A stretch of 64,000 nt of DNA, from positions 186,001 through 250,000 of the forward strand of contig NZ_VDUZ01000004.1 of the NCBI RefSeq assembly GCF_008039615.1, in the 5' to 3' direction. The position numbers and the translations under genes are program-made. Below are positions 11,406 through 21,062 of the stretch, one piece after another. How positions within the stretch are numbered: position 1 is the stretch's first letter; every line of letters starts with the position of its first letter. Source of the stretch: Vineibacter terrae. Lineage in GTDB: Bacteria > Pseudomonadota > Alphaproteobacteria > Reyranellales > Reyranellaceae. Under the pieces are notes generated by a model. The model saw only the letters and a program-made list of their open reading frames with translations. It did not search any database and had not been told where the DNA came from.

Positions 11406-13230
11406 TCAGCGCTTGAGCCGGGTGTAAAGCTGCAGGAGCCTGGCCGGCAAGGCGGCGATATCGGGCATCTGCAGGACCGCATGCGGCCCGACGATCCGCG
11501 CCAGATGCACACCGGCGCCGATCCCGAGCGCGAACACGTCGACGCCCCGCTGGCGCAAGCGCTGCGCCACGTGACGGGCATCCGCCACGAGATAGAGCGG
11601 ATCGAAGACGTCGATGTCGGCCGGCTCGCCGTCGGTGAGCAGCAGCAGCACGCGCCGGAAGGCGCGGCGCGCCTCGAGGCCTGCGCCGGCATGGCGCATC
11701 GCCGTCCCCAGCCGGGTGGAGAAGCCGGCGCGCAGTCCGGCCAGCCGGCCGCGCACAGGCAGGTCGAACGGCTCGTCGAAATCCTTGAGCTGGGTGTAGA
11801 ATACCTTGTGGCGGCCGTCCGAGCAGAAGCCGTGGACCGCAAGCGCGTCGCCGGCGCCGTCGATGGCCGCGGCGGCGGCTCTTTCGGCCGCCAGCACGGT
11901 GCGGCCATCGCCGTCGGCGTCATTGGTCGATTCCGACAGGTCCAGCAGCAGCAGGGCCAGGTCGCGCGGGCCGGGGACATGGCGCACATAGACCCTGTGA
12001 TCCGGCGGCTGGCACGTCCGCAGGGCGACATGGGCGGCGATGCAGGCATCGATATCGAGGGTCTCGCCCTCGCTGCGCCGCTTCTGCCGCAGGCGCCGGC
12101 CGATCGTCGCCGTCTTCGCCAGGGCCTGGACGCGGCGGGTGACATCGTCGCTTGCCAAGGGCGTCGACAGGGACCACGCCGCCGGTGCTGGCGAAGGCGC
12201 CGTCTCCACGATCGTCGTCCAGTCGGAGCGCTCGCGTGCCAGCACGTGATCCCACTCGGGGTAGGTCGCGATCGCCTTCCGCGGCGGCCGGCGCCGCCGG
12301 GCGCGCACGCCCGACGTCATCACGCGGCGGTGCGTCGTCGGATGCCGGCGCCTGCGGCTCGTCACAACGCTCGATGCGGGCCGTGTCGATCGTGAGCGCG
12401 ATATCGTCCATGACGGCGTCCGGCGCGTCGGGGAAATCCCAGAGGCCGGCGTTGTCGTCACGATAGGCCGGCTCGACGACATAGGTGTGGGGATTGAACT
12501 GCACACGCATCTGGCCCAGGTCGTTGCCCAGCAAGCCGCCCAAGGGGCGGCTGATCCGCGGATCCGTGAGCGTCGCCTGCGCGAACAGGGTGCGGCCCTT
12601 GGCGACCCAGGCATCGTCGTCGCGATAGGCGGGGTCGAGCAGGGCACGCGCCAGGCGGGCCAGCAATGCCGGCGCCGTGCCGCCGTGTGGCAGCGCCACG
12701 TGGAACGGCGACCAGAAATGACGCAGGCCGGGCATGGCCCGCAGCGCCAGCGCCTCGACGCGGGCATCCTCGATCAGCGAAACCAACGTGACCTGCAGCG
12801 GCTTCAACGTGCCGATCGCCAAGCGCTGGGGCGTGTAGGTGAGATGGGCGCCCAGATGCGCCGCGGCGGCGCGGTAGAGCGCCATCGCCGCATCGCCCGA
12901 GAGGCCCGGGAAACGCTCCGGGAAGCGCAGCAGGGTTCCCGTGAAGGATGTACGGCGCGGGGCGGGAGCGTCGGCCGGCGCCAGGGCAGGGCGCAGCGGC
13001 GGACGCAGGCCCCATAACGCCGTGAGTTGCGCCGCAAGCCGCGATTCGGCACGACGGAAGTCGGATGCGGCGCCACCGCGCGCCAGGAGGCGCTGCGCCA
13101 GCGGGTCATCGAGCGCGAAATAGGCGCGCCGCCGGCCACGATCGTCGGCGGTCGCGCGCAGGCCGCTCACCATCCAGGCCTCGAGGCCATCGATATCGAC
13201 CATGGCCAGCAGGTGGTCCAGTCGTGCCGT
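11406..13230 (-). pseudogene. norD-like VWA protein, frameshifted and 5'-truncated
   Basis: The N-terminal half (frame from ATG 13203: [15 protein letters not shown] ... FPERFPGLSGD ... PHTYVVEPAYRDDNAGLWDFP) and the C-terminal half (AIATYPEWDHVLARERSDW, then the VWA domain with MIDAS motif DLSEST) are both clear NorD/CbbO-type sequence, but in different frames. The switch lies in a GC-only stretch around 12273-12330. Upstream of 13203 the frame still looks family-like (TARLDHLLA) up to about 13225, where it abuts a broken ABC-protein gene, so the natural 5' end is missing. Family members help insert cofactors into nitric oxide reductase or Rubisco. No nor or cbb genes are nearby. Confidence 0.72.
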
Positions 13231-13605
13231 AGAGGGTCGGGTACCACAGCAGGCCGTTCAGGCGCTCGACGACGGGCAGCACCGCCTTGCGGCTCGACGA
13301 CGTGTAGCACCCGAAGATGGGATGGTCGTGATGCGGTCCTCGATCATCAGGCGCTTGGCGTAGTGGCCGAAAGCGGCCGACTCGGAGGCCGGATCGTAGA
13401 CGACAGGGACGAGCTCGCGGCCGTTGACGCCGCCGCTGCCGTTGATCTCCTCGATCGCCAGCAGGGTGCCGTTCAGCTGGGTCTCCTCGATCACCGACAT
13501 GAAGCCGGAGTGCGAGAAGAGCACGCCGCCACGCCACGGCTCGCCCGTCTTTCCTGGAGGTGTCGGGCCGGACACGCTTGTGCGCGGGAGCAATCGGCAT
13601 GGCAT
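13226..13605 (-). pseudogene. fragment of amide/urea ABC substrate-binding protein (AmiC/FmdD type)
   Basis: From ATG 13605 the frame reads [54 protein letters not shown], the N-terminal lobe of branched-chain/amide-type periplasmic binding proteins. After RITTI the frame breaks at a tandem 5-bp duplication (GATGG GATGG, 13316-13325). Removing one copy continues as [29 protein letters not shown]. Homology then stops at about 13229, where norD-like sequence begins. About 110 of an expected ~400 residues remain, and there is no permease or ATPase gene nearby. The duplication is a true mutation type, so this is a dead gene rather than a base-call error. Confidence 0.75.
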
Positions 13606-13901
13606 TCTCCCAAACGTCTTTATTGTGGCCTGGCGCTCGACGGGCCAGCGAGATTGTTCGACGTTGACTGCTATCGCTCGTGCAAGAATCGTGACACGGA
13701 ACGCGTGGCGGGCGCAAGGCGGCCCCCGCGGGAACTGGCTGCCTCGGGAACAGGCCAAGTGAGCGGCAACTTAGCAGTCGCTCACGGCACGTCGCGTGCC
13801 GCCGCCGATAGCGCAGACAGAGCTGACGCTCGCCCCGAAGCGAATGAAGGGCAGAGGGCCGCCCGGCGGGGTGATGCGTTTCCGTGAGGAGAAAGCGTCT
13901 C

Positions 13902-13980
13902 ATTCTCCTCATTTTATGATGAGAATAAGTTGAATCTTGAGGCGAAAGGCCCTACATTCTCATCACGTTTTGAGGAGAAT
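13902..13980 (+). promoter_or_regulatory. two near-identical operator-like palindromes upstream of fic
   Basis: ATTCTCCTCA-N5-TGATGAGAAT (13902-13926) and ATTCTCATCA-N5-TGAGGAGAAT (13956-13980) have the same 10-5-10 layout, each with one mismatch between arms, and start 54 bp apart. The right arm of the second contains the GAGGAG Shine-Dalgarno, and its last base touches the fic ATG at 13981. A further half-site, TGAGGAGAAA, is at 13885-13894. The arrangement suggests autoregulation by looping. The 13606-13901 stretch otherwise shows no gene. Confidence 0.65.
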
Positions 13981-15081
13981 ATGTACATCTGGGAAAGGCC
14001 ATCATGGCCGGATTTTCGGTGGCAGGATGCACGGCTGCTCGAGCCGCTCGCAGCCGCGCGGCTAAAGCAGGGGCAGCTGCTGGGCGGCATGGCGCGTCTG
14101 GGCTTTGACCTCCGGCGTGAGGCGCAGTTCAATGCGCTGACCGAAGATGTCCTCAAGAGCTCCGCGATCGAGGGTGATATGCTCGATCGCAACAGCGTGC
14201 GTTCCTCACTCGCGCGACGTCTTGGCCTGCCGGATGCGGCTGCCGCTGCTGTCGATCGTCGGACAGAAGGTGTCGTCGACATGCTTCTCGATGCCACGGA
14301 AAATCACGATAAGCCTTTGACGGCACGGCGGCTGTGCGGCTGGCAGGCCGCGCTGTTCCCGACCGGCTATTCAGGCCTGCATCGAGTAAAGACGGGTCGC
14401 TGGCGTGACGATGCGCAGGGGCCGATGCAGGTCGTCTCTGGCCCGATCGGACGCCAGCGCGTTCACTACCAGGCGCCTCCGGCTGCGAGGCTCGACACCG
14501 AGATGCGGCGCTTCCTGGAATGGTTCAATCGCAAAAGCGGACCGGAGGGGCTGCTGCGCGCCGGCCTCGCGCATCTCTGGTTCGTGACCATCCATCCGTT
14601 CGACGACGGCAATGGACGCGTGGCGCGTGCGATCGCTAACCAGGCGCTGGCGCAGTCGGAAGGCTCAGGGCAGCGCTTCTACAGCATGTCGAACCAGATC
14701 CAGAAGGAGCGTACCGGCTACTACGCCATGCTGGAACGCACGCAGAAGGGCGGTCTTGACGTCACGCAGTGGCTGGTCTGGTTCCTCGACTGCTTCTCCC
14801 GCGCGCTCGACGGCGCCGAATCGGCTCGTGACAATGTGCTGAGCAAGGCCGACTTCTGGCAGCGCTATGCGCGTGAGCTGTTCACGGCACGGCAGAAGGT
14901 GGTGCTGAACCGGTATCTGGACGGATTCGAAGGCAAGCTGACCGCCAAGAAATGGGCGGCGATCGGCAAATGCTCGGTGCCCACGGCGCAGCGCGACATC
15001 AACGATCTGCTCGAGCGCGGCATCCTGCGGCGCAATCCTGGCGGCAGCAAGAACACCAGCTACGATCTGGCCGGGCGCTGA
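13981..15081 (+). CDS. Fic-family adenylyltransferase with N-terminal inhibitory motif
   Basis: 366 residues. The Fic motif HPFDDGNGR is at 205-213 with the catalytic His205. The inhibitory (S/T)xxxE(G/N) motif is SSAIEG at 60-65, so AMP transfer should be held off until the Glu is displaced (class II). The N-terminal part matches the DUF4172 domain common in such proteins, and the C-terminal ~50 residues (LTAKKWAAIGKCSVPTAQRDINDLLERGIL) form a winged-helix DNA-binding domain. The start at 13981 is set by GAGGAG; an upstream in-frame start at 13930 is less likely. No antitoxin gene is needed or seen. Autoregulation through the two upstream palindromes by the C-terminal HTH is plausible. Confidence 0.85.
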   Translation: MYIWERPSWPDFRWQDARLLEPLAAARLKQGQLLGGMARLGFDLRREAQFNALTEDVLKSSAIEGDMLDRNSVRSSLARRLGLPDAAAAAVDRRTEGVVDMLLDATENHDKPLTARRLCGWQAALFPTGYSGLHRVKTGRWRDDAQGPMQVVSGPIGRQRVHYQAPPAARLDTEMRRFLEWFNRKSGPEGLLRAGLAHLWFVTIHPFDDGNGRVARAIANQALAQSEGSGQRFYSMSNQIQKERTGYYAMLERTQKGGLDVTQWLVWFLDCFSRALDGAESARDNVLSKADFWQRYARELFTARQKVVLNRYLDGFEGKLTAKKWAAIGKCSVPTAQRDINDLLERGILRRNPGGSKNTSYDLAGR

Positions 15082-15177
15082 CTGCGTATCGACTTTGACC
15101 TGCAATCATATAGTTGCATGATGCGCCCGGCCGTCCGCTCGAGGCCACCACGCGACGCTGGAAGGGAGCGGCCTGAC

Positions 15178-15558
15178 ATGAGCTTCGGCAAGACGACACC
15201 GATCCTGCGGATCTTCGACGAGACCAAGGCGAAGGAGTTCTATGTTTCGTTCCTGGGCTTCAAGGTCGACTGGGAGCACCGCTTCGAGCCGGACCTGCCG
15301 CTCTACATGCAGGTCTCCAAGGACGGCTGCATCATCCACCTCTCGGAGCATCACGGCGATGCCTGTCCCGGCGCCGCCATCCGGATCGAGACCGACGAGC
15401 TCGACGCCTTCCATACCCAGCTGCTGGCGCAGAAGCACAAGAACACGCGGCCGGGGATCGAGGACATGCCGTGGGGCCGCGACATGTCGATCACCGATCC
15501 GTTCGGCAATCGGCTGACGTTCACCAGCGCGGGGGGCACCAGCGCGGCGGGGACGTGA
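15178..15558 (+). CDS. glyoxalase-superfamily protein (bleomycin-resistance-like)
   Basis: 126 residues, one VOC module pair: TPILRIFDETKAKEFYVSFLGFKVDWEHRF, then IIHLSEHHGD, and the C-terminal WGRDMSITDPFGNRLTF. The pattern is that of BLMT/glyoxalase-like binding proteins, which act as dimers. Metal ligands cannot be assigned with certainty, so an enzyme, a drug-binding or a metabolite-binding role are all open. The start at 15178 has a GGAGCGG site upstream and removes an Arg/Pro-rich false N-terminus. It ends 1 bp before the stop of the convergent cyclase gene. Confidence 0.75.
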   Translation: MSFGKTTPILRIFDETKAKEFYVSFLGFKVDWEHRFEPDLPLYMQVSKDGCIIHLSEHHGDACPGAAIRIETDELDAFHTQLLAQKHKNTRPGIEDMPWGRDMSITDPFGNRLTFTSAGGTSAAGT

Positions 15559-15559
15559 C

Positions 15560-16669
15560 CTACCGCATGCCAATCACATTCCAGGCCGGCACCGCTCGGG
15601 TGAAGCCCTTCAGGATCCTGGCGTCGGTGGCCTGCAGCTCGGCGATGTCGCCGACGGCGTCCGCGACGCGTGAGCTGATCAGGATCTCGCCGTCGGCGGC
15701 CTCGCCGCACAGGCGCGCCGCGAGGTTGGGCGTGGAGCCGATGGCGCTGTAGTCGTTGCGGCCCTCGAGGCCGATCTGGCCCAGGGTGGCGTAGCCCTGG
15801 GCGATGCCGACGCCGAAGCCGATCGGCTGGCCGCGGCGCTGCCACTTGGTGCTGATGGCGTGCACGGCCTCGCGCATGGCCACCGCCAGCCGCACGGCGC
15901 GGTGGGCCGGATCGGGGCAGGGCAGGGGATCGTTGAAGAAGACCATCAGGCCGTCGCCCATGAAACGGTCGAGCGTGCCTTCGTAGGCGTGGATCGGCGG
16001 CCCGACCGCGGCGTGGAAGTCGGCCAGCAGCGCCATCACTTCCTCGGGCTCGGCATGCTCGGCGAACGCGGTGAAGCCACGCAGGTCGCAGAACAGCACG
16101 GCGATGTCGCGGCGGTGGTTGCGCAGGATGCTGTCGTCGCCCTGGGCCAGGATCACCTCGGCGAGCTGCGGCGCCAGGAAGCGCTTGAGCTTGCCGACGC
16201 GCACGATCTCCTCGAGCTGCGTCGCCACGCGCGCCTCGAGCCTGGTGTTCCAGTCGGCAAGCTCGCGCGCCTGCTGCTGCACCTGGTCGTGCAAACGCTT
16301 GATGCGCAGCATGGCGCGCACGCGCGCCACCAGCGTGGCGTGGTCAATGGGCTTGAAGAGGTAGTCGTCGGCACCGGCACCCAGCCCGGCGACGAGATCC
16401 CGGGTCTCGGCGCGCGCCGTCAGCAGGATGATGGGCACGAACGGGATCGCTGGATCGGCGCGCAGCCGGCGGCAGACCTCGAAGCCGTCGAGCTTGGGCA
16501 TCATGACGTCGAGCAGCACGACATCAGGTGCCATCGACGCGATCTTGGCGAGGCCGTCCTGGCCGTCGACCGCGGTCGTCACCGCGTAGCCCTGGCTCTG
16601 CAGCCGCAGCTGCAGGATCTCGCGATTCTCCGGGACGTCGTCGACCACCAGGATGCGCGCGCCGGTCAT
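15560..16669 (-). CDS. response regulator with adenylate/guanylate cyclase output domain
   Basis: 369 residues. Receiver domain 4-120 with acidic pocket Asp10/Asp11, phosphoacceptor Asp54 (VLLDVMMPK), Thr84 and Lys106. A coiled-coil linker (~125-165) leads to a class III cyclase domain with metal-binding aspartates Asp195 (FCDLRGFT) and Asp239 (FMGDGLM), then YSAIGSTPNLAARL. Phosphorylation should switch cyclic-nucleotide synthesis. It follows the receiver-fusion gene by 8 bp on the same strand, and such receiver plus receiver-cyclase pairs are common in alphaproteobacteria. The cognate kinase is not in the window. The CRP-type site near 3.57 kb could be one downstream target of cAMP; that is inference. 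Confidence 0.88.
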   Translation of the reverse strand: MTGARILVVDDVPENREILQLRLQSQGYAVTTAVDGQDGLAKIASMAPDVVLLDVMMPKLDGFEVCRRLRADPAIPFVPIILLTARAETRDLVAGLGAGADDYLFKPIDHATLVARVRAMLRIKRLHDQVQQQARELADWNTRLEARVATQLEEIVRVGKLKRFLAPQLAEVILAQGDDSILRNHRRDIAVLFCDLRGFTAFAEHAEPEEVMALLADFHAAVGPPIHAYEGTLDRFMGDGLMVFFNDPLPCPDPAHRAVRLAVAMREAVHAISTKWQRRGQPIGFGVGIAQGYATLGQIGLEGRNDYSAIGSTPNLAARLCGEAADGEILISSRVADAVGDIAELQATDARILKGFTRAVPAWNVIGMR

Positions 16670-16677
16670 GGGGCGCG

Positions 16678-17469
16678 CTACCCCAGCCTGGCCCGCACCA
16701 TCGCCAGCAGCTGGCGCGGGCTGAAGGGCTTGGCGAGATAGTCGTCGCAGCCGGCGGCGCGCGCCTTGCCCTCGTCGCCGCTCAGGGCGTAGGACGTGAC
16801 GGCGATCACCGGGATATGCCGCGTCGCCTCGTTGGCCTTGATGCGGCGCGTCGCCTCGTAGCCGTCGAGCACCGGCAGCTGGATGTCCATCAGGATCAGG
16901 TCGGGCTTCTCGCGCGCCGCCGCCGCGACGCCCTCGGCGCCGTCGGCCGCCTCTATCATCTCGTAGCCGACGCTGGTCAGCAGGTCGCGCACGATCTGGC
17001 GGTTGTCTTCGGTGTCCTCGACCAGCAGGTGCAGCCGCTTGGCGTCCAGTTCGCCGGGGAGAAGTGAGACACCAGTGACGTTGCCGCCAGGACGCGCGTG
17101 GCTGCGTGCGAGGCCGAGGCGCACGGGGTCATCGCCAACCATGACGATCGGGATGGTCTTCGTCTCGTTGTGAGCGGCCCGCACCACGGCTTCGGAGATG
17201 GCAAGGATGACGTCGGGGCGGCGGGCAATGATATCGCGGACGGCGTCCCGCAGTCCATCCGGCGGGGCCACACGCACATGGACCTCCAGGTTGCGTCCCT
17301 CCGCGTAGCCGAGCCGCGCCAGCTCGGGAAACATCACGCGGCGCGCGGTCTCTGGTTCCACCGGCGAAAGGATGCCGAGGCGGTAGATCCGATCGCCGGT
17401 CTGCGCGAAGCCCGGCGCGGCAGCCAGCAGCAGCAGGGACAGCCAAGCGAGGCAGGGGAGCCACTTCAT
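16678..17469 (-). CDS. fusion: exported ABC_sub_bind N-lobe joined to a response-regulator receiver
   Basis: 263 residues. Residues 1-23 are a signal peptide (ends APGFAQ). Residues 27-143 match the ABC_sub_bind (DUF534) substrate-binding family, including IPIVMVGDDPVRLGLARS and ARPGGNVTGVSLLPGELDAKRL. Without a break the sequence becomes a DivK-like receiver: LLVEDTEDNRQIVRDLL, phosphoacceptor Asp195 (LILMDIQLP), Thr225, Lys247. The join is near residue 145 (about 17034). The second half of the binding protein is missing, and no start codon for a free receiver is visible at the join. Exported, the receiver would face the periplasm, away from kinases. A deletion scar or an assembly chimera are alternatives. 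It is 8 bp upstream of the receiver-cyclase gene. Confidence 0.7.
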   Translation of the reverse strand: MKWLPCLAWLSLLLLAAAPGFAQTGDRIYRLGILSPVEPETARRVMFPELARLGYAEGRNLEVHVRVAPPDGLRDAVRDIIARRPDVILAISEAVVRAAHNETKTIPIVMVGDDPVRLGLARSHARPGGNVTGVSLLPGELDAKRLHLLVEDTEDNRQIVRDLLTSVGYEMIEAADGAEGVAAAAREKPDLILMDIQLPVLDGYEATRRIKANEATRHIPVIAVTSYALSGDEGKARAAGCDDYLAKPFSPRQLLAMVRARLG

Positions 17470-17553
17470 GCGATCCCCGTGTCGGCTCGGGCAGCGAGAC
17501 CACGGTACTGACGCAAGCATACCATTCGATCGGATATGCCGCGAGGCGAGATC

Positions 17554-18441
17554 TCAGGCTGCGCGCCGCCACAGGTCGCGCGACGCCAGCACGGCGCCGC
17601 CGACCACCAGGGCGGCCGCCAGCAGCAGCGTCGGCGTCGCGGCGGCGCGGCCGGCGGCGACCAGCAGGGCGGTCGAGAGGATCGGCGTGGCGTAGCTGAG
17701 CGCGCCCAGGGCGCGGATGTCGCCGCGCTTCATGCCGATGTCCCAGAGATAGAACGCGGCGCCGACCGGGGCCACGCCGAGCGCCGCGACCGCCGCCCAG
17801 GCGCCCGTGGTGGCCGGCCATACCGTCGTCTCCACCGCCAGATGGCAGAGCGCAGCCAGCACGGCGGCGGCGGCGCAGAAGGCGGCGACGGCGTCCGTCG
17901 GCACCTCGCCGAAGCGCCGGCTGGTGACGGAGTAGACCGCCCACACCACGGCGCAGCCCAGGGCCGCGAGATAGCCCGGCCAATGGGCGCCGGCGAAGCC
18001 GACCTCGCCGCGGCCCAGGGTCAGCACCACGATGCCGGCCAGGCCCAGCACGGCGCCGCCCAGGTGCCAGGCCCGCAGCCGCTCGCCGCCGATCGGGGCC
18101 GACAGCAGCACGATCAGCAGCGGCCAGAGGTAGTTGATCAGGTTCGCCTCGGCCGGCGGCGCCTGGCGCAGCGCCACGAAGTAGAGCAGGTGGTAGCCGA
18201 ACAGGCCGCCGACGCCCAGCAGCCAGACGCGCGGCGGCCAGGCCATGGCGGCGCGCAGCGCGCGGCCCTGGGCGATGATCCAGGCGCCGCCCACGATGGC
18301 GCCGATGGCGAAGGTCATCGCCGCGAGCTGGAAGGGCGGGATCTTGCCGGTCAGCACCGTGAGCAACGCCAGAGCCGACCACATCAGGATCGAGATCGCC
18401 CCCAGCGCGGTCGCCCGCTGCCGCTCCTGCGGTCCGGTCAT
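17554..18441 (-). CDS. EamA/DMT-family transporter (YddG-like)
   Basis: 295 residues, about ten membrane helices in two EamA repeats. Motifs seen include QAPPAEANLINYLWPLLIVLLSAPIGGERL in the first half and APVGAAFYLWDIGMKRGDIRALGALSYATPILSTALL in the second, both typical of the aromatic amino-acid/drug exporter branch. It sits in the inner membrane and exports a small metabolite that cannot be named. ATG 18441 is preferred; GTG 18450 is also in frame. It is monocistronic, with the Sel1 gene divergent. Confidence 0.8.
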   Translation of the reverse strand: MTGPQERQRATALGAISILMWSALALLTVLTGKIPPFQLAAMTFAIGAIVGGAWIIAQGRALRAAMAWPPRVWLLGVGGLFGYHLLYFVALRQAPPAEANLINYLWPLLIVLLSAPIGGERLRAWHLGGAVLGLAGIVVLTLGRGEVGFAGAHWPGYLAALGCAVVWAVYSVTSRRFGEVPTDAVAAFCAAAAVLAALCHLAVETTVWPATTGAWAAVAALGVAPVGAAFYLWDIGMKRGDIRALGALSYATPILSTALLVAAGRAAATPTLLLAAALVVGGAVLASRDLWRRAA

Positions 18442-18668
18442 CGCCGCCACATTGCGCTGGCGTCCGGCGTCGGGCCGGTGCGTCTGTGGCTGACCGTCAA
18501 GACTGCATCTGTATGCAATAAGTTGTGGACGCGCACAGTTTTTCTATCTATAATCTCATTGTCACGCTGCCCGAGGTGAGGCGCCGTGAGCGGTCCTCGA
18601 TGCGTGGTGTGCTGTCCAGCAAATCATATCCGAGGCGGCCGATCCAGAAGCTGCCCCTGGGGGAAACG

Positions 18669-21062
18669 ATGACCGACCAAGGCCCGGCGCCGCGGCGCCG
18701 GGGGAAGATGCGTCACCGGTTGCTGGTGACAGTGGTTGCCGCCGGCCTGGCGACAGGCATCGTCGGGCCGGCGGCAACGGCGCCGATCGACGACGCGATG
18801 GCTGCCGTCATGCGCGAGGACTACGCCACGGCCGTGCGCCTGCTGCGGCCGCTGGCCGAAGCTGGCGATCCCGGGGCTCAGATCACGCTCGGCCATCTAT
18901 ACCGAGTCGGGCTTGGCGTTCCACGCGATCACGCCGAAGCTCTGAAATGGCACCACCGGGCGGCGGCGCAGGGGGAGGCCGAGGCTGAGGTGGCCATCGG
19001 CGATGCCTACCGCGAAGGTCTTGGCGTCGCCCGGGACATGGCCGAGGCGGCCAAGTGGTATCGCCTGGCCGCCGAGCAGGGCAACGCCGATGCACAGTAC
19101 AGGCTTGGCTGGCTGTACCGCAACGGAGAGGGCGTGACGGCGGATCATGCCGAAGCCGCGCGCCTGTTTCGCGCTGCCGCCGAGCAAGGGCATGCCGGTG
19201 CCCAGCACGACCTGGCGCGAAGCTACTTTTTCGGCCAGGGCGTGCCCAAGGATGCCGCGGTTGCATTGGAATGGGAACGCAAGGCCGCCGAGCAGGGATT
19301 TCCGGAAGCCCAGTACAGCCTCGCAGCCCTGTATCTGATGGGGCACGGAACGGCAGAGAATCGAGCAGAGGCTGTGACGTGGTTGCGCAAGGCCGCCGAG
19401 CAAGGCAATGCCGAAGCGCAGTATCAGCTCAGTCATGTCTACATGGACGGCATCGGCGTCACGCCGAATCGCGTCGAAGCCGTCCTCTGGCTGCGCAAGG
19501 CAGTGGTGCAACGGCATCCGCAAGCCTGCCTTGTGCTCGGACGACTGCACCGAGACGGCGGCGATGTCGAAAAGAACGCCGCCGAGGCCGTGCGGCTCTT
19601 TCGTCTCGCCGCCGACCAGGGCGATGCCGAGGCTCAAGATGAGCTTGGCATGATGTACGAGCGGGGCCTTGGCGTCGAGGAGAGCGCGCCGGAGGCGGCG
19701 TCGTGGTATCGCAAGGCAGCGGAGCAAGGCTACGCCTTGGCCCGCTACAACCTTGGCCGCATGCATGCCTATGGCCACGGTGTCACGCGAGACAAGGCCG
19801 AGGCGGCAAGGCTTTTCCGGCTCGCTGCCGACCAAGGGCTGGCCGATGCGCAGCATGCGCTCTGCGGCGCCCTCATGGTCGAGGCCGGGGTGCCGCGCGA
19901 CGAGGTCGAGGCCGTCCAATGGTGCCGCAAGGCGGCAGAGCAGGGCCACGTCTACGCGCAGGTCAACCTTGGCGTCTTCTACCGCGACGGCCGAGGTGGC
20001 TTGGCGCAGGACGATGCCGAAGCGGCCTCGTGGTTCCGCAAGGCTGCTGAGCAGGGCGATGCCGACGCGCAGTACGCACTCGGCCGGGCTTACGCGCAGG
20101 GCGAAGGCTTGCCGCGGGATGACCGCGAAGCCTTGCGGTGGTTTCGCCATGCCGCCGAGCAGGATCACGGGCAGGCGATCACCGCTATCGGCATGATGTA
20201 CGAAGAGGGGCGTGGCATCGCGAAGGACGAGGCCGAGGCGGCGAGGTACTATCGCCGCGCGGCTGCCTTGGGCGATGCCTACGGTCAGCACAGGCTCTGC
20301 CGCGCCCTTGCTCTCGGGGTCGGCGGGTCGCGTGACGATGTCGAGGCCGTCCAATGGTGCCGCAAGGCAGCGGAGCAAGGCTACGCCAGGGCACAGGTCG
20401 ATCTTGGTGCATTCTATCGTGACGGCGCTGGTGGCCTGCCTCAAGACTTCGCCGAGGCGGCATCCTGGTTCCGCAAAGCGGCTGACCAGGAGGACGCCCA
20501 GGGCCAGTTCGTCCTGGCGCAGCTGGTTTTCCTCGGCAAGGGCGTGCCGAAGGACGAGGCGGCTGCGGTGCGGCTCTATCGCTTGGCGGCGGCGCAGGGC
20601 CGCGCCGAGGCGCAGCTGGCGCTTGCCCGCGCCTACGCCGCGGGCGTCGGCGTGGTGAAGGATCCGGCGCAAGCCGCCACCTGGTTCCGCAAGGCCGCGG
20701 AGCAGGGCGACGCTGACGCCCAGCTCGAGCTTGCGACGATGTACGGCCACAGCCATGGCTTGGCGCTGAGCTATGAGGAAGCGGCCAAGTGGTATCGCCG
20801 CGCCGCCGATCAGGGCAACGCCACGGCGCAATATGGCCTGGGCGTGCTGCATGGCAACGGCCGGGGTGTGACACGCGATGATGTGCAGGCCTGGGTGTGG
20901 TTCGACCTTGCGGCGACGGGCTTCGGCACGGACGACACTGCCTGGCGCGATGCCGCGATCCGGGAGCGCAACGCCATCGCTGCCCGTCTGACGCCGGCGC
21001 AGGTCCAGGAAGCCCGCCAGCGCGCGGCCGATTATCGGCTGATGAGCTCGCCTTGGCAGTGA
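18669..21062 (+). CDS. long Sel1-repeat (TPR-like) exported protein
   Basis: 797 residues from ATG 18669. A charged N-terminus and hydrophobic stretch (LLVTVVAAGLATGIVGPAATA) form a signal peptide or anchor. The rest is a near-continuous array of about 20 Sel1 repeats of ~36 residues with the core A-x-x-x-YR-KAAEQG-A-AQ-LG-Y--G-GV--D. Such arrays are protein-protein interaction scaffolds in envelope regulation, exopolysaccharide control or secretion; nothing here selects one. Repeats around 19910 and 20330 are almost identical at the DNA level (VEAVQWCRKAAEQG), pointing to internal duplication. A TATAAT lies at 18549-18554. Confidence 0.82.
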   Translation: MTDQGPAPRRRGKMRHRLLVTVVAAGLATGIVGPAATAPIDDAMAAVMREDYATAVRLLRPLAEAGDPGAQITLGHLYRVGLGVPRDHAEALKWHHRAAAQGEAEAEVAIGDAYREGLGVARDMAEAAKWYRLAAEQGNADAQYRLGWLYRNGEGVTADHAEAARLFRAAAEQGHAGAQHDLARSYFFGQGVPKDAAVALEWERKAAEQGFPEAQYSLAALYLMGHGTAENRAEAVTWLRKAAEQGNAEAQYQLSHVYMDGIGVTPNRVEAVLWLRKAVVQRHPQACLVLGRLHRDGGDVEKNAAEAVRLFRLAADQGDAEAQDELGMMYERGLGVEESAPEAASWYRKAAEQGYALARYNLGRMHAYGHGVTRDKAEAARLFRLAADQGLADAQHALCGALMVEAGVPRDEVEAVQWCRKAAEQGHVYAQVNLGVFYRDGRGGLAQDDAEAASWFRKAAEQGDADAQYALGRAYAQGEGLPRDDREALRWFRHAAEQDHGQAITAIGMMYEEGRGIAKDEAEAARYYRRAAALGDAYGQHRLCRALALGVGGSRDDVEAVQWCRKAAEQGYARAQVDLGAFYRDGAGGLPQDFAEAASWFRKAADQEDAQGQFVLAQLVFLGKGVPKDEAAAVRLYRLAAAQGRAEAQLALARAYAAGVGVVKDPAQAATWFRKAAEQGDADAQLELATMYGHSHGLALSYEEAAKWYRRAADQGNATAQYGLGVLHGNGRGVTRDDVQAWVWFDLAATGFGTDDTAWRDAAIRERNAIAARLTPAQVQEARQRAADYRLMSSPWQ

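Follow-up and report, generated by a model that had tools for sequence, protein, structure and literature searches.

Is a gene that begins as an exported solute-binding protein (SBP) and ends as a phosphorylation receiver a new kind of sensor, or is it the scar of something lost? Such a gene was found in the window, the whole 64,000-nucleotide stretch of Vineibacter terrae DNA analyzed here. An earlier note, made from the letters alone, had given its coordinates exactly (16678-17469), and only the strand needed to be corrected, to minus.

The fused reading frame and the position of the join

As shown in Table 1, the fused ORF is followed by a gene for a receiver-cyclase, whose start codon lies 8 nt past the stop codon of the fused ORF. 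The in-frame fusion described in the earlier note was borne out: an ABC_sub_bind SBP truncated after residue 149 is joined in frame to a complete DivK-like receiver, and the frame is open, with no stop codon and no frameshift. The ABC_sub_bind (PF04392) match extends over residues 50-138 and profile positions 24-113 of 293 (E 1.6e-12). Its score of 47.7 bits against a curated cut-off of 25.9 places this part in the family, while the homology stops at residue 149 and nothing is matched past profile position 113. The protein is not a full-length member; three SBP relatives that were scanned have 318-356 aa and match the profile up to position 292-293. The Response_reg (PF00072) match extends over residues 148-259 and profile positions 2-111 of 111 (E 9.4e-27). 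Both matches are far beyond chance. E151, D152, D195, T225, and K247, which I take to be the acidic pair, the phospho-acceptor Asp, the Thr/Ser, and the Lys of receivers, are invariant in 16 aligned receiver sequences, as in a complete receiver. PleD (1w25) and DivK (1m5t) were among the best solved-structure matches of the receiver. By eye, the N-terminus looks like a Sec signal peptide ending in GFA before Q, and the N-termini of the relatives are alike, ending in AQ.

Table 1. Positions of the fused ORF, its parts, and the following gene in the window
Feature	Position	Strand	Basis
Fused ORF, 263 aa plus stop	17469..16678	minus	ORF list and translation
Putative signal peptide MKWLPCLAWLSLLLLAAAPGFA, residues 1-22	17404..17469	minus	read by eye
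SBP-derived half, residues 1-149, first part of ABC_sub_bind	17023..17469	minus	Pfam, relatives, predicted fold
Join: codon 149 (CTG, SBP side) / codon 150 (GTC, receiver side)	17022..17023	minus	
Receiver-derived half, residues 150-263, with E151/D152, D195, T225, and K247 kept	16681..17022	minus	
Receiver and Guanylate_cyc-family (class III) nucleotide cyclase, 369 aa	15560..16669	minus	Pfam
In-frame GTG codon 65 with GGAGG 5 nt upstream, putative internal start	17275..17287	minus	

Where do the two genes meet? It had been proposed that the boundary lies at residues 143/146 and that the crossover fell in an AKRL stretch shared by both families. The domains of that proposal, an SBP part with a signal peptide and a complete receiver, are correct, but the join is between L149 and V150 (window 17023/17022), just past AKRL. 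The homology of the fused ORF to intact SBPs extends through KRLHLL, and the nucleotide homology of the window to the receiver gene of a paralogous module on contig C52 of the same genome ends at 17024. At the join position, the window reads ELDAKRLHLLVED, the intact SBP relatives read ELEGKRLHLLSE (L143 and L171) or ELDGKRLDLLAQ (L142), and the C52 receiver, which lies downstream of a 974-aa kinase, begins MSKRILVVEDTED. Left of the join, the window matches the SBP relatives and, right of it, the receiver. Few bases are common to both, for example TG, and GAGG in two of the three SBP relatives compared. The receivers of C52 and of the same-genus genome G003 start with MSKRILVVED, one codon shorter than KRLHLLVED of the window. 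Since the KR of these receivers sits one codon nearer to VED, the KR of the window was assigned to the SBP side. Thus, AKRL is off by one codon in register and is not an in-register sequence shared by the two families.

For the AlphaFold models, two alignments (A2 and A3) were used apart; a mixed alignment (A1) was not used for folding, its SBP rows being misplaced onto the receiver. In the model from the receiver alignment, residues 146-150 are drawn as the first receiver strand (block pLDDT 62 and 76), and SBP residues may therefore stand in for the lost KRILV as this strand. In the model from the SBP alignment, the first lobe is drawn with residues 31-120 at a block pLDDT of 84-96, and the value drops to 34 for residues 141-150. 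In both models, confidence is low for the half that had no alignment.

The operon of the family and the surroundings of the fused gene

In the family of V. terrae, SBP gene(s), kinase, receiver, and receiver-cyclase commonly follow one another on the same strand. By my own reading of the locus tables, the gene immediately 5′ of the kinase gene, on its strand, encodes an SBP in 14 of the 18 module loci with the 5′ region of the kinase gene in view (L125, L126, L128, L129, L132, L134, L135, L137, L138, L139, L140, L141, L171, and L173), or in 12 of 16 when L171 and L173, which were fetched for holding an SBP relative, are excluded. The SBP match beside the kinase is partial in L138. The other four loci are L127, L136, L144 (where only the catalytic end of the kinase is matched), and C52, whose SBP genes lie downstream of the module on the other strand. 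A total of 21 module loci were read; three of them (L130, L131, and L133) were outside the count because the contig begins inside the kinase gene. The loci without the module (L142, L143, L172, and L174), L175 and L176, and L017 and L018 (apparently the same contigs as L132 and L137) were also outside the count. In L171, L126, L129, L132, L138, L140, and others, the kinase, receiver, and receiver-cyclase genes are immediately preceded by two to seven ABC_sub_bind genes in a row.

G003 (L125) has the intact order of SBP, kinase, receiver, and cyclase genes. The kinases of C52 and G003 consist of dCache, HAMP, GAF, HisKA, and HATPase_c domains. In the window, no such kinase is present, and only the two ends of the operon are kept in the same order and on the same strand: the start of the SBP gene and the receiver and receiver-cyclase genes. 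The suggestion in the earlier note that the receiver-cyclase downstream had lost or changed its partner thus held, as the usual partner kinase is absent from the window. Only one of the five relatives nearest to the SBP half, that of G024 (L171), lies upstream of a kinase gene on its strand. This SBP is the nearest in kind (45% identity), shares KRLHLL, and is the first of seven consecutive SBP genes that precede the kinase gene; the distance from its codon 149 to the receiver gene on the same strand is 10.3 kb. The SBP relative of G056 adjoins a module but on the opposite strand, and no such kinase was found beside those of G039, G046, and G008 within the stretches read.

The V. terrae genome has one separate paralogous module with a kinase, that of C52. 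The alignment of the window with C52 covers the receiver-cyclase and receiver genes only (15560-17024, 85.6% DNA identity), and the proteins are 90% and 89% identical, respectively. A search of the genome with the C52 kinase gave a single full-length match, the kinase itself; at E 1e-40 there were three others, limited to the catalytic end and 33-44% identical. The best match of the SBP half elsewhere in the assembly has at most 49% identity. In a tree of the receiver and cyclase sequences, the three copies of the genus (window, C52, and G003) form one clade (100/100), within which the window and C52 are weakly grouped (86/29). Since the first receiver helix is identical in these three copies, a cytoplasmic fused product should be recognized by the C52 kinase, judging from sequence. 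The GC3 of the receiver and cyclase genes is 0.94-0.97 in the window (15560-17025) and 0.83-0.85 in C52 (L009 7776-9290), and the C52 module may therefore lie in a region of different origin. C52 also carries a further SBP-like stretch (L009 9604-10122; C52:21609-21950), which may be another broken SBP gene because one TAG lies inside the match.

Is the fused gene placed where a relative keeps the parts? The genome G002 is collinear with the window on both flanks, with an EamA gene 84% identical in DNA. However, the block 13780-17561 of the window, comprising the genes for a Fic protein (DUF4172-Fic), a glyoxalase, the receiver-cyclase, and the fusion, is absent from G002, where some 540 bases holding a DUF2569 ORF take its place (L174 11791-12333). 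Neither G001 nor G002 has a match at E 1e-30. The block would be either an insertion in V. terrae or a loss in G002; because the collinear G002 lacks the whole block, the fusion may have predated the arrival of the module. A search for mobile-element repeats at 12500-18700, around the block, listed only short, GC-rich, chance-like ones. Beside the block, at 13228-13758 on the minus strand, lies a second broken binding-protein gene with the first part of Peripla_BP_5 (profile 2-72 of 363). This gene is whole in G002 (424 aa), which has about 10.2 kb more at the point corresponding to window 13224/13228.

Is the fusion found in other genomes? Related genomes were searched, as the earlier note had proposed (75 of the family, 385 of the class, and 398 of the phylum, in overlapping sets), and the SBP-receiver fusion was found only in the V. 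terrae genome itself. The family search scored the best 34 or fewer first-look candidates per genome, with matches of E 1e-30 or better, and the class and phylum searches scored the best six or fewer, with E 1e-34 or better; a weakly similar fusion elsewhere could escape these searches. A receiver match was present in 34 of the 75 family genomes. In the class and phylum searches, all matches listed except that of V. terrae begin at residue 117 or later. One match spanning residues 11-171 (G039:C1) turned out to be an SBP gene. The in-frame stretches upstream of 271 receiver matches, in 151 of 176 loci, were tested against the window SBP half and the four C52 SBPs, and an SBP-like stretch was found only in five overlapping copies of the window locus. 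Of the seven other-genome loci from outside the family, four were read (L177, L178, L179, and L183), and in these no SBP was seen by eye in the frame upstream of the receiver. At least 5000 plasmid records matched; among the matches listed, three had one place covering at least 80% of the query, at 28-31% identity. Two of them are Bacteroides hybrid kinases (PAS, HisKA, HATPase_c, and Response_reg) and the third, from Tistrella, is a response regulator with Trans_reg_C. Since all three are without ABC_sub_bind, this weak coverage of both halves in a single place does not indicate a fusion. Literature searches, judged by titles, gave nothing recognized as an SBP-receiver fusion or as the family operon, and no match for ABC_sub_bind combined with a histidine kinase and a response regulator.

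Constraint and the origin of the fusion

In a three-way codon comparison of the receiver and receiver-cyclase genes, the window lineage has 16 nonsynonymous and 22 synonymous changes. The corresponding numbers are 14 and 58 for the C52 lineage (Fisher p 0.014 against the window) and 30 and 88 for the G003 lineage (p 0.065), these being two uncorrected tests. This excess of amino-acid change suggests that constraint may have been relaxed on the window lineage, although the counts are few. The SBP half departs from the conserved columns at 6 of 34 (with one gap), and 17 intact SBP relatives do so at 0-8 of 31-36. Decay is not proven, since the frame is unbroken and the SBP half is no more divergent than intact SBPs. 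Two other candidate signs of decay were rejected. One was the loss of the Shine-Dalgarno sequence of the cyclase gene: the gap between the receiver and cyclase genes is short and variable in seven other loci, and the site of G003 is weak too. The other was the GC3 of the SBP half, which at 0.82 is low but compares with 0.80 and 0.85 in two intact relatives and 0.68-0.77 in the C52 SBP genes.

What produced the fused gene? Since the window holds only the two ends of the family operon in the same order and on the same strand, the simplest origin is an in-frame deletion within an operon of SBP(s), kinase, receiver, and receiver-cyclase, and the fused gene is probably the scar of such a deletion, with the kinase lost. 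The deletion would have extended from codon 149 of the SBP gene to around codon 8 of the receiver gene, taking out the remainder of the SBP gene, whatever other SBP genes followed, and the whole of the kinase gene. The KRLHLL of the SBP would thereby have taken the place of KRILV of the receiver as the first beta strand. If translated from the SBP start, the product would carry a Sec signal, and its receiver would be sent to the periplasm, where it could not meet a kinase; the fused receiver would thus have lost its function. The surviving receiver-cyclase would then depend on input from outside its operon; the C52 kinase is the most plausible source, and the window cyclase may persist under it. 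The undeleted ancestor of the window copy is not among the loci read. I infer, rather than see, the ancestral neighbor of the SBP gene, since only the G024 SBP among the five nearest relatives lies upstream of a kinase gene on its strand.

The short-homology recombination of distant, separate SBP and receiver genes favored in the earlier note is unlikely. Two observations would allow it, namely that the stretches read around three of the five nearest SBP relatives hold no such kinase and that a few bases are shared at the join, but AKRL is out of register. Moreover, in the common family order the kinase gene stands between SBP and receiver genes that share its strand, and a deletion therefore needs no second locus. 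Rather than a recombination of unrelated genes, the fusion is better read as one deletion inside an operon whose order recurs in most of the loci counted.

Could the fused protein nevertheless work? A start at GTG65 could give a cytoplasmic product without the signal peptide, which is the main route to a working fusion. It would be a receiver with an SBP-lobe extension working with the C52 kinase, a reading that can be combined with a deletion origin but seems distinctly unlikely. The frame is open, the phosphorylation residues are kept, each half was modeled as folded with its own alignment, and the Shine-Dalgarno energies of GTG65 (-10.2) and GTG67 (-10.5) are stronger than that of ATG1 (-5.7). 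The strong ribosome site of the receiver itself (AGGAGG, -10.9 in C52 and G003) lies within the stretch absent from the window. Yet the GGAGG before GTG65 codes for SBP residues and may be there by chance, the signal peptide is intact, and the window lineage shows the excess of amino-acid change. A join in frame arises in one of three cases without selection. The gain of a ligand-binding partner by the receiver, which the earlier note had envisaged, is also unlikely: the fold of these proteins suggests that the binding cleft between the two SBP lobes should be missing, because only the first part of the SBP remains. Overall, the evidence favors a deletion scar over an acquired ability to sense a ligand.

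An assembly error, in which the C-terminal part of the SBP gene and the kinase gene were skipped or two operons were joined, is very improbable. The assembly is a draft of 135 contigs, and the fusion was seen in a single genome among those searched. However, the join is in frame and inside a 263-kb contig, neither half has a near-identical source (89% at best for the receiver and at most 49% for the SBP half), and no second close kinase is found on another contig. At the join, just a few bases are common to SBP relatives and receivers, which leaves no apparent repeat to mislead an assembler. Least probable of all is that the fused protein, through the GTG65 start or inefficient export, acts as a cytoplasmic receiver with an SBP lobe, tuning or titrating the C52 kinase and linking translation to the cyclase gene; if true, a new SBP-lobe/receiver architecture would have been born by an operon deletion.

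Relation to known systems and meaning for the family

The fused gene is most likely the remnant of an operon without its kinase, whose receiver is mis-sent to the periplasm. Like ABC_sub_bind SBPs, the fused protein has a signal peptide and the first part of the domain, but the remainder of the profile is lacking. Like DivK-type single-domain receivers, it has a complete receiver with the phosphorylation residues, but it has a signal peptide in front and a first strand largely of SBP origin, whereas DivK is cytoplasmic.

SBPs are known to activate sensor kinases; the parts of the sources consulted describe a kinase stimulated by BctC (PMC9602780) and GtrS with GltB (PMC7927077). The family operon appears to fit this theme by analogy, in that its SBP genes adjoin a dCache kinase gene. 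It differs from the systems in those parts of the two papers in its output genes, a receiver and a receiver-cyclase, and the window copy differs further in having lost the kinase.

These comparisons of sequences suggest that the fusion is a deletion scar rather than a new kind of sensor. It is a single-genome example of an operon deletion that would have joined two collinear genes in frame into a chimeric ORF, and it warns against reading such ORFs as functional links. The family operon is the more notable by-product and merits study more than the fusion does. It is a candidate pathway from SBPs to a cyclic nucleotide, and it predicts that periplasmic solutes may control a cyclic-nucleotide signal in the family.
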